Assembly: GCF_030685535.1 (NCBI RefSeq)
Contig: NZ_CP131601.1
Coordinates: forward strand, 868,001 to 932,000
Source: Photobacterium leiognathi
Lineage (GTDB): Bacteria; Pseudomonadota; Gammaproteobacteria; Enterobacterales; Vibrionaceae
Length of the DNA stretch: 64,000 nt
Direction: 5' to 3'
Shown here: one piece after another, positions 1 through 14,535 of the stretch
How positions within the stretch are numbered: position 1 is the stretch's first letter
Layout of the letters: the number at the start of each line of letters is the position of its first letter
The notes under the pieces: model-generated
The model's database searches: none
The model's input: only the letters and a program-made list of their open reading frames with translations
Told to the model about the DNA's origin: nothing
Position numbers and translations under genes: made by a program

Positions 1-929
1 CTTTTCCAGCCCACACGTTTCTTACCCATGAGATCATTGCGGGGACTTAGTGCGTATTTCTCTTTAAGATAAGCAGCACGAGTTGTTTTACCTGAGCGTC
101 CACGCCAGTTATTTGGGGCTTTACCGTCCTCTGGATGATAGATACGAACCATTACGCTATCAGGGTTAGACGGGTCGATTAAGACATCTTCAAGCCACAG
201 GTGTAAAGCCTCTGACTCTCGCAAACCACCGCCATGCATGAGCAGTAAAATTAATTGGTCACGTAATGCAACCCTACGGTCTACTGCACCGCCTAAACCA
301 TCGAAGTAAAACGCTTCAAAATAACGCTCAGGAAACTCTATCGCATCTTGTGACTGCTTACCCAACGGACGTTTTCCTTGAACGCTACGAGCATAACGAA
401 CGGTTGAATTGATGTGCTTATCTTTGATATGACCGAGGAAGTTATGTTGATTTTTACGAAACCAAGCAGCGTAGTTAAGGCGTTGTGTCAAACTGTCAGC
501 CTTAACCAGTGGATTCATGGAGATCGCACCGTGTTTCTCAGCTAACCAGTCAGTCACTTTACTTAGGGCATTAATGTGTAATCGGGCAACTTGCTTGCTG
601 CAAGGCAACCAATACAACCCCGACGGATCTAAACCATCATCACCAATCGTGCCTGTGTATAACCGACTACTGAAATTCTCAAATAAGGATTGTGGAGAGT
701 CAAAACCACTAGTGTTAGCAGCCATGTACTCAAGTAGAAGTTGCGTTGCCTTAACGTAATTACTAATGGTTGATTGACTCATACCATCACGTTTCAACTT
801 CAAAACAAATTCAACCAATGGTTTTACTGGTTCTTTATTCTTATCAAGCAATACAGGTATCTCAGTAAACACCCCTGAATCATCCTGAACTACCTTTGCA
901 TTAACCTTTACAACCTCCACTACACTCAC
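1..929 (-). CDS. gmtY: GmtY-like tyrosine recombinase, 3' end cut by window edge
   Basis: Open on the minus strand with no stop from a GTG at 929-927 to the left edge (about 309 residues seen). The N-terminus (MSVVEVVKVNAKVVQDD) and the phrase GTIGDDGLDPSGLYW match what I remember of GmtY, the tyrosine recombinase of Gamma-Mobile-Trio islands. A SAM-like N-terminal core-binding part (SQSTISNYVKATQLLLEY) is followed by the start of the catalytic domain, with the box I arginine in GGGLRESEALHLW. The box II His-x-x-Arg and the catalytic tyrosine would lie beyond the window. If the island follows the usual layout, gmtZ and gmtX would come next, to the left. The family label rests on memory; tyrosine recombinase is the safer call. 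The GTG start is chosen because it gives the family N-terminus. Confidence 0.75.
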   Translation of the reverse strand, partial: MSVVEVVKVNAKVVQDDSGVFTEIPVLLDKNKEPVKPLVEFVLKLKRDGMSQSTISNYVKATQLLLEYMAANTSGFDSPQSLFENFSSRLYTGTIGDDGLDPSGLYWLPCSKQVARLHINALSKVTDWLAEKHGAISMNPLVKADSLTQRLNYAAWFRKNQHNFLGHIKDKHINSTVRYARSVQGKRPLGKQSQDAIEFPERYFEAFYFDGLGGAVDRRVALRDQLILLLMHGGGLRESEALHLWLEDVLIDPSNPDSVMVRIYHPEDGKAPNNWRGRSGKTTRAAYLKEKYALSPRNDLMGKKRVGWK

Positions 930-1120
930 TCTCTCTACCTTAATAACCTATATTAATTATAGTAAAGCAACTAGATTTAACAGTTAATAATAAACAAAAA
1001 AAAGACCTAAACTAATAGATCTTTTATAAGTCTTATATACTAATAGTCACTAGTAATAACTGAGGTAGCGTTTTTTGTTTTTATCGCGTTTTCATCTCAT
1101 CGTATTCTCATTTCTTAAAA
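930..1120. other. AT-rich junction between recombinase gene and flgB promoter
   Basis: No gene is seen. The stretch is very AT-rich. It holds an imperfect inverted repeat, AAAAGACCTA (1000-1009) and TAGATCTTTT (1016-1025), that could act as a two-way terminator, a small palindrome ATAAGTCTTAT (1026-1036), and the octamer ACTAATAG twice (1011-1018 and 1039-1046). The right border of the putative island must lie here or just inside the flgB promoter region; I cannot define its exact end without the other border. Confidence 0.4.
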
Positions 1121-1138
1121 TTGGCACTGTCTTTGCTT
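1121..1138 (+). promoter_or_regulatory. sigma-54 promoter of flgB
   Basis: TTGGCACTGTCTTTGCTT matches the sigma-54 consensus TGGCAC-N5-TTGC with GG at 1123-1124 and GC at 1135-1136, exactly 10 bases apart. It lies about 30 bases before flgB. Polar flagellar rod-hook operons of Vibrionaceae are known sigma-54 targets of FlrC. Confidence 0.85.
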
Positions 1139-1169: not shown

Positions 1170-1565
1170 ATGTCCATTTCGTTTGATAAAGCATTAGGGG
1201 TTCACCAGCATACGGTTGGCGTACGTGCAAAGCGTGCAGAAACCCTTGCGAGTAATATCGCCAATGCCAATACCCCAGGTTATAAAGCTAAAGATATAGA
1301 CTTTCAGCGTGCGCTTAATGCGGCAACATCTGGGGCAAATATTGGCCTAAGTCGAACGAATGGGCGGCATATTAATGCCACAACCCAAGTCACAGGTGAG
1401 CAAAAGTTCCGTGTGCCAACCCAACCTGATACTGGTGATGGCAATACCGTAGATGCACAACTTGAGCAAAACATGTTTATGCAAAACAGTATTGAATACC
1501 AAGCATCATTAGACTTTCTAGGTTCGAAGTTTAAGAACCTGAGCAAGGCACTGAAAGGGGAATAA
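1170..1565 (+). CDS. flgB: Flagellar proximal rod protein FlgB
   Basis: 131 residues. FlgB builds the proximal rod in the periplasm, exported by the flagellar type III system. The N-terminal rod motif (LASNIANANTPGYKAKDIDF, about residues 26-45) is the family signature and the C-terminal heptad-like helix is present. I chose ATG 1170 because GGAGG at 1159-1163 is well placed and MSISFDKALGVHQ is the usual N-terminus; an upstream in-frame start at 1155 would place the Shine-Dalgarno inside the gene. First gene of flgBCDE, three bases before flgC. Confidence 0.95.
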   Translation: MSISFDKALGVHQHTVGVRAKRAETLASNIANANTPGYKAKDIDFQRALNAATSGANIGLSRTNGRHINATTQVTGEQKFRVPTQPDTGDGNTVDAQLEQNMFMQNSIEYQASLDFLGSKFKNLSKALKGE

Positions 1566-13137: not shown

Positions 13138-14535
13138 ATGGCTGTTACAGTTAATACTAACGTCTCTGCAATGACCGCCCAGCGTTACCTAAACGGTGCA
13201 AGCAACGGCGTTGCTAATAGCATGGAAAAACTTTCTTCTGGTCTTCGCATTAACTCTGCAAAAGATGATGCTGCAGGTCTTCAAATCTCAAACCGTTTAA
13301 CAAGCCAAACAAACGGTCTAAATGTAGCTATGCGTAATGCCAACGATGGTATCTCTATGGCGCAAACGGCTGAAGGCGCGATGTCAGAAACAACAAACAT
13401 GCTACAACGTATGCGTGATTTGTCTCTTCAAGCAGCGAATGGCTCAAACTCAACAGAAGACCGTGAAGCACTTCAAAAAGAAGTTGATGCGCTACAAACA
13501 GAAATGACCCGTATCGCAGAAACAACCACGTTCGGTGGTCAACAATTACTGGATGGTACATTCGGTACGAAATCTTTCCAAGTTGGCTCAAATGCTAATG
13601 AAACCATTGCTGTCACATTGGGTGATGTGTCTTCAAATGCTATCGGCAGCCAAACTGCAGGTGGTGCTGGTACAGTATTCGGTGCAGCTACTCCAGCAAC
13701 TACAGAGGGTGAAGATTATGCGGACGGTCTTACACCTGGTGATATAACGATTCATGGCGGTAACGGTAGTAAAACTGTTTCTCTTACAGGTACTGATAAA
13801 GTGACTGATGTAGCTGATAAGATCAATAAAGCTGGAAGTGGGGTTACGGCATCAACTTCTGTAACGACAAAAATTGATAACTTAGTTGCTGGTGAGACTG
13901 GTACGTTAGAGATTGGTGATGATTCATTTAACCTAGCGAAATACAATGGTTCAATGGAAGATTTAGCATCTGATCTTGGTAAAGCAGGTTACGATGCAAC
14001 TATTGATGATGCTGGTGCGCTAACGGTTACAGCAAAAGATGTTAATGGTATTAAAGTGACAGATGCACTTGATACTGGGATTACTCTTGATGGTGTTGCG
14101 GCAGGTGCTGCCGATGAAGAAATTGTTAAAAATGCGGAATTAAAATTATCTTCATCTGATTCGTTCTCTGTGACTGGTGCAAATGTCGGTGAAATTATAA
14201 ATGATACTACATCATCGTTAAATTCAGTTAAAGATGTTGACGTAACATCGGCAGCAGGTGCGCAAGATGCATTAGATGTTATTGATGCAGCAATTGCTGG
14301 TATTGATGCGCAACGTGCAGATTTAGGTGCGGTACAAAACCGTTTCAACCACACGTTAAATAACCTTGCGAACATCAATGAAAATGTGAATGCATCAAAC
14401 AGCCGTATTAAAGATGTCGATTTCGCAGCTGAAACCACTAACATGACGAAGAACCAAATTCTGCAACAAGCAAGTACTTCTATTCTTGCACAAGCTAAGC
14501 AGATCCCTCAGGCGGCACTTAGCCTACTGGGTTAA
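13138..14535 (+). CDS. Flagellin
   Basis: 465 residues; the filament subunit, exported through the flagellar type III system. The N-terminal D0/D1 ([19 protein letters not shown] through about 165) and C-terminal D1/D0 (about 375-465, ending [10 protein letters not shown]) are typical of Vibrionaceae polar flagellins. The middle (about 175-370) is longer than the roughly 375-residue Vibrio flagellins and is rich in Asp, Gly, Thr and Ala: a variable surface domain. It is the only flagellin in the window, so I leave the paralogue letter open. Ribosome site AAGGAG at 13123-13128. Confidence 0.93.

Follow-up and report, generated by a model that had tools for sequence, protein, structure and literature searches.

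A Gamma-Mobile-Trio island between cheR and flgB of Photobacterium leiognathi, very probably inserted in the loop of a terminator

The stretch of DNA analyzed here, called the window, covers 64,000 nucleotides of Photobacterium leiognathi (contig NZ_CP131601.1, positions 868,001 to 932,000; G000:C3:868001-932000 in our numbering), and at its left edge lies the gmtY end of a Gamma-Mobile-Trio (GMT) island of about 6.4 kb in total, which is placed between cheR and flgB. Very probably this island entered the Rho-independent cheR terminator at its loop, by a copying mechanism that would leave a hexamer of its donor at the new site. Its position upstream of flgB can be understood because many GMT elements enter the loops of terminator hairpins. 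The island extends beyond the window, and the left flank was examined over C3:832001-869500, with open reading frames called there.

Genes, borders and empty site of the island

Read from right to left on the minus strand, the island contains gmtY, a tyrosine recombinase of 495 amino acids (C3:867442-868929, the 5' part of which is window 3-929), gmtZ (880 amino acids, C3:864810-867452), gmtX (231 amino acids, C3:864149-864844) and one orphan gene of 216 amino acids (C3:863149-863799), after which comes cheR on the plus strand, ending at C3:862659. All four were called as open reading frames, and the members of the trio match their NCBIfam profiles well above the cut-offs: GmtY matches NF040693 with 550.3 bits against 340, GmtZ matches NF047926 with 1027.1 against 600, and GmtX matches NF040692 with 243.6 against 40. 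A preliminary description of the window had recognized a GmtY-like tyrosine recombinase reading leftward off its edge and had proposed a GMT island directly upstream of flgB; the minus-strand frame at 3-929 is indeed part of GmtY, the three trio genes follow one another in the left flank, and the leftward extension recommended as a check recovered gmtZ, gmtX and a cargo gene, with cheR appearing only past the latter. GmtY also matches Phage_integrase and GmtZ matches PF13009, with residues R258, H462, R465, H490 and Y499, putatively catalytic, invariant across six sequences; the predicted structure of GmtZ was too poor for use (mean pLDDT, the predicted local distance difference test, of 42.7) and was set aside. 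GMT islands are characterized by the order gmtY-gmtZ-gmtX, with cargo past gmtX and carriage to differing places. The window's island has the same adjacency and position of the cargo, as well as related trios at differing sites and kin with empty sites, while differing from the known islands in having a single cargo gene.

The borders of the island are given by the two halves of the cheR terminator, which in this genome lie about 6.4 kb apart. The left half, AGCGCTAC, occupies C3:862667-862674, next to the far island border at about C3:862675-862681, whereas the right half, consisting of the arm GTAGCG and a T-run (GTAGCG-TTTTTT), occupies window 1065-1076 on the plus strand. Between this arm and the gmtY-side end of the element (window 930-1059, with outermost bases TTATTACTAG on the minus strand, 1059-1050) there is a spacer of 5-6 nt (window 1060-1065, its length uncertain by 1-2 nt), which by analogy with the islands presented below would be host loop sequence retained on the gmtY side. 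The same end is common to islands in Photobacterium sp. SKA34 (L095), in G166 (L084) and in Psychrobacter (L118, L138). The first gene rightward of the island is flgB (window 1173-1565, plus strand, supported by its open reading frame and the FlgB search); the border lies less than 200 bases from it, the preliminary description having placed one at such a distance from the flgB promoter, and the element ends at about 1059 and not at 1120. Ahead of flgB, window 1121-1137 on the plus strand carries the sequence TTGGCAC-N5-TTTGC, which we take to be a promoter motif of sigma-54 type; it is identical in the closest relatives and was not damaged by the insertion.

Other marks of the border that had been suggested fared less well. 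The ACTAATAG repeats are present at 1011 and 1039, but the window has three copies against 1.89 expected, and 34 of 100 shuffles reach three, so that they were dropped as island ends, their frequency being no higher than chance. The idea of inverted repeats marking the end stands in part, for an imperfect repeat, TACTA-N8-TAGTA, found by eye at window 1038-1055, sits at the border and may be the core for recombinase binding, the border itself being defined by the split terminator.

Among 40 relatives, the FlgB search gave matches in 35, and 29 loci from other genomes were read. In 28 of these, cheR and flgB are adjacent at 98-607 nt from each other, in agreement with the earlier statement that cheR is a normal neighbor of flgB; the exception is L042, a locus that runs into a contig end and in which cheR was not seen. 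The cheR terminator is intact in G006, G010, G002 and SKA34 (AGCGCTACCGC...GTGTAGCGCTTTTT; -22 kcal/mol in SKA34), four nearly identical sequences that do not count as independent. Comparison with related genomes, which had been advised for finding both borders and any target duplication, located both borders via this empty site, and no long target duplication is visible by eye. SKA34 has the empty cheR-flgB site, yet it carries elsewhere in its genome a trio that is 94% identical in DNA over 4,958 bp. GmtY of the window is about 98% identical to that of SKA34 (L095) and about 91% identical to that of Acinetobacter sp. CFCC 10889 (L142), and these high identities point to a fairly recent transfer between Photobacterium and Acinetobacter.

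Terminator hairpins at the borders of related islands

The survey of GMT islands scanned genome contigs with a GmtZ alignment and took the best 80 of 164 candidate loci. Outside the gmtY border, an A-tract and a G+C-rich arm recur in many loci, and the far end of one large subgroup reads CACTCACTCAC...ACTATATACTC. Left and right flanks were paired for 21 islands, 18 of the pairs lying on a single contig (L101, L109, L126 and L140 by position in genome hits). When the outer flanks are rejoined, 20 of the 21 islands give a hairpin (the stem of L162 is interrupted), with a mean of -17.1 kcal/mol versus -7.4 for mismatched flanks, a difference reached by none of 20,000 permutations; an island's own right flank ranked best in 15 cases and second best in five. 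Without the cross-contig pairs a hairpin forms in 17 of 18, and among pairs found without the help of arm matching in eight of nine, again with 0 of 20,000 permutations in each case. An uninterrupted stem of at least 6 bp is present in 20 of 22 pairs, one plasmid pair being added, versus nine of 462 mismatched pairings; border and stem are 5-7 nt apart at the gmtY end of the island and 5-6 nt apart at its far end. A test for half a terminator in the gmtY-side flank alone was passed by 29 of 58 borders (L097, among the failures, being a false border hit, and five further borders being too short), versus 2032 of 82,365 upstream positions and 85 of 6,380 near positions. Two islands that do not belong to the 21, L084 and L139, have half a terminator at either end; for L112, L131, L134, L135 and L174 the far side was fetched and no convincing far end was found, while L130 and L142 had no border from which pairing could start.

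Natural empty sites give this pattern a resolution to the base. In E. coli, a GmtZ gene related to that of locus L117 occurs in five of 5,426 complete genomes, one of them near-identical, and both ends could be resolved in two of the five. Strain TW05614 has the element in the eno terminator, with GCCAGC-CCGGAG on the gmtY side and AAGTAT-GCTGGC on the far side, and the site is uninterrupted in E2865 (GCCAGC-CCGGAG-GCTGGC). Strain S1-CAM-01-A has it in the crcB/cspE terminator, where the gmtY side reads CCCGC-TGATTAA; M217 shows the native site as CCCGC-TGATTAA-GCGGG (a 7-nt spacer with the stem drawn that way). Elements of the L117 type are present also on IncHI2 plasmids, where the gmtY side reads GGCCAGC-AAGTAT in the two that were read, and R478, an IncHI2 plasmid without the element, has GGCCAGC-AAGTAT-GCTGGC. 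Hence, in three cases out of three the native loop predicted from the gmtY side was then found to the base: CCGGAG in eno, TGATTAA in crcB/cspE and AAGTAT in R478. Among the remaining three of the five E. coli cases, plasmid KFu015 has AAAACGCCC-TTAAG at its gmtY border, plasmid Ecol_732 has no border motif, and EC2001 has part of the trio only. Similarly, G166 carries a GMT, with GmtY 88% identical to that of the window, in the terminator after a phoR-like gene (named by eye), and this terminator is whole in all eight relatives read. For the chromosomal site in Leclercia, the native terminator was not recovered, its flank being held by none of 11 relatives. A fixed orientation of the element relative to the U-tract was considered and dropped, as the T-tract of the G166 site (L084) stands at the far end.

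Most of the elements carry a terminator of their own inside the gmtY border: in 49 of 62, a hairpin with an A- or T-run is found no more than 110 bp from this border, versus 29 of 371 control windows inside gmtY or gmtZ. The element of the window fails that test; it has a hairpin with a T-run inside the gmtY border, at window 994-1030 on the minus strand (-9.3 kcal/mol, z -5.1), which is probably its own terminator. Close to the cheR end, at L004:12830-12860, there is another hairpin, with TTTT after it.

Among other features of the surveyed loci, the contig ends of L107, L108 and L132 coincide with the ends of the GMT element, as expected if it were multi-copy in those genomes. In the Acinetobacter loci L097 and L115, at about 13258-13400, the far end seems to lie less than about 150 bp from gmtX, leaving no cargo past this gene; L115 matches only the last third of gmtY, and L097 has a different gmtY-side end.

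Hexamer footprint, proposed mechanism and rival explanations

Like the trio, the borders and the terminator targets, the hexamer rule of the IncHI2 element is shown at the level of the sequences. The host loop of about 6 nt is retained on the gmtY side, and a foreign hexamer stands at the far side of the island. According to passages of PMC10214605, when strand-biased circularizing elements (SEs) or Tn554 move, the 6 bp that flank the donor on its left are copied along and end up to the right of the new insertion, and GMT resembles this family in showing such a transferred hexamer. The footprint can be followed in a single IncHI2-borne GMT, of which Leclercia and E. coli carry copies: AAGTAT, the gmtY-side hexamer in both of the IncHI2 plasmids read, is also the far-side hexamer of both chromosomal copies, and the plasmids were inspected after the expectation of AAGTAT on the gmtY side of the donor had been formed. 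Leclercia 29361 has the element both on a plasmid and in the chromosome, with 100% identity over 12,462 bp, and because the plasmid copy persists beside the chromosomal one, the sequences fit a movement of copy type. In L126 and L121, the same hexamer is found on both sides. By analogy, the window's own element would obey the hexamer rule.

We infer the roles of the recombinases, the copy-out step and the replacement of the terminator as follows. GmtY, an ordinary tyrosine recombinase, and GmtZ, a large one, would act with GmtX to produce a copy of the element bearing the approximately 6 bp that flank its gmtY end. Recombination would then take place within the loop of about 6 nt of an inverted repeat, typically a terminator, so that the target loop would be kept on the gmtY side, the donor hexamer would be placed on the far side and the two terminator arms would become separated. 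The element's own terminator, inside its gmtY end, would insulate it and could stand in for the one that is lost.

A number of points weigh against this proposal, or restrict its extension to other islands. Of the 58 gmtY borders, 29 fail the half-terminator test; among these failures, L116, L121 and L162, the last with its interrupted stem, pair well with their far flank, as does L102 with another contig only. The same-contig flanks of L102, which comes from Vibrio sp. Isolate32 with its two islands, do not pair, and this is the single failure among the 21. Because two hairpins are restored when the left flank of L102 is joined to the right end of L194, and the left flank of L106 to the right end of L102, the evidence suggests that the ends of these islands (loci L102, L106, L190 and L194) were exchanged by recombination between islands, or misassembled. 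Three right ends (L099, L121, L125) lie on another contig and were picked by arm match, which makes them biased, and nine pairs were initially noticed using arm complementarity. The far end of the SKA34 island (L095) was sought and not found. The evidence for the footprint is one case with one donor element, and the hexamers of the window's island are uncertain by 1-2 nt. Other kinds of target are seen as well. Seven loci (L145, L146, L149, L151, L152, L160, L166) lie, by eye, downstream of an apparent 4.5S RNA gene. Two Psychrobacter islands (L138:8363 onward, L118:8369 onward) start inside a clustered regularly interspaced short palindromic repeat (CRISPR), reading CACC-GCATAG and then TTATTACTAG; in L138 the repeat so split is the last in an array that has 15 units whole. 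Its far half was sought by a pattern of guessed spacing in L138 and L118, and also in the fetched contig end of L138, but did not turn up, L118 ending with its contig. Finally, islands with distant GmtY proteins (about 30-35% identity) lie, by eye, in an apparent greB (L085-L089) and in a radical-SAM-like gene at its cysteine motif (L090, L091), and because these sit in coding genes, terminator targeting is not general to all GMT.

How the loops are recognized is a separate question. One explanation, for which we find the scales level, is that a degenerate sequence (A-tract, G+C-rich arm ending in C, N6, G) is read as double-stranded DNA, the hairpin having no role. The motif C-N5-7-G stands at the loop edge in 17 of the 22 sites, A- or T-tracts are present at most of them, and tyrosine recombinases normally act at inverted repeats about a spacer of 6-8 bp, all of which speak for this explanation. 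However, the sequences of the arms vary between sites, and an A+T-rich inverted repeat of 12 bp that lacks terminator tracts (L116) and the CRISPR repeats of L118 and L138 are used too. The alternative, to which we give somewhat less credence, is that GMT recognizes the shape or dyad symmetry of the hairpin rather than its sequence; then any terminator with a loop of about 6 nt, and even a CRISPR repeat, could serve, the intrinsic terminator would be the general attachment site, and a replacement terminator would be brought along. It is unlikely that the window's element is a decayed and immobile remnant: it is the one trio in its genome, with one match above the GmtZ cut-off, and has one orphan cargo gene, but each of its trio genes has a full-length open frame, neither end of the element is missing and the closely related trio of SKA34 lies at another site. 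Near-random insertion, with terminators as the safe intergenic places that survive selection, would fit with most of the borders read being intergenic (by eye), in-gene insertions being lost, but is highly improbable, for selection does not centre an element in the loop at the distances from the stem given above, with stems intact in 20 of 22 pairs, and similar-looking upstream control positions amount to only 1.3-2.5%.

Relation to known elements, cargo and neighboring genes

The primary description of GMT islands is reportedly that of Mahata et al. 2024 (Nat Microbiol 9:3268). A search that did not cover this primary paper recognized, by title or opening of the abstract, no report on GMT target sites or on terminators as targets of tyrosine-recombinase islands, and the examined passages of papers citing GMT make no mention of terminator-loop targeting or of a 6-bp footprint; both may provisionally be regarded as new. 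Tn554 has one main target site, whereas GMT uses many terminators. SEs require tfp and srap, according to passages of PMC10214605. Insertion at intrinsic terminator motifs is shared with group IIC introns, which are, however, retroelements inserting at or after the motif (PMC4424553, in part), GMT being a tyrosine-recombinase island that splits the loop. Terminator hairpins are targets also for IS1272 and TnSha1, without specificity for primary sequence, but these are insertion sequences that cut at the hairpin, with possible loss of some of it (excerpts of PMC4923244), whereas GMT keeps both arms and the loop of about 6 nt. A further parallel is the integron integrase, a tyrosine recombinase with structure-dependent recognition of palindromic attC sites (PMC2727003); attC acts as single-stranded cassette DNA, and nothing in the GMT sequences points to single-stranded recognition.

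In practical terms, entry into terminator loops combined with a readable tag of 6 bp allows exact island ends and empty sites to be found, and copies to be traced to their donors. GMT islands are present on conjugative plasmids, and two identical islands in different syntenic regions are mentioned in part of PMC12039261. Terminator targeting suggests that they spread between bacteria and plasmids without damage to genes, which would make GMT a tyrosine-recombinase system with a general, gene-sparing target.

Passages of the same paper report defense and antibacterial cargo for GMT islands in Gammaproteobacteria, and the preliminary description had thought new genes for defense or offense possible in the left flank. 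One cargo candidate is present there, in an island that is small, with a single such gene to which no function is assigned. The 216-amino-acid protein has four relatives besides its own cluster among 5.8 billion proteins, and none in viral contigs, plasmids or PDB sequences. No curated profile matched it above cut-off. Its motif RNQWVH is invariant in all five aligned members of the family and satisfies the pattern RX4-6H, which we take to be that of HEPN ribonucleases; no fold match supports HEPN, and the structure matches obtained, being common helical arrangements, were not used. A role as a toxin or in abortive defense is our guess. The GMT cargo of the IncHI2 plasmids and E. coli includes, by annotation, DUF6527, ThiF-family and multiubiquitin-domain genes (L197:25829-28625, L226:19616-22412), possibly a ubiquitin-like set with a function in defense.

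Further left of the window, at G000:C3:842432-854066 (L003, L004), another integrase is accompanied by a restriction-modification set of type I (HsdR, HsdS and HsdM by PADLOC) with an unassigned gene of 580 amino acids between hsdR and hsdS; from the end of this region to the GMT island the distance is about 8.6 kb.
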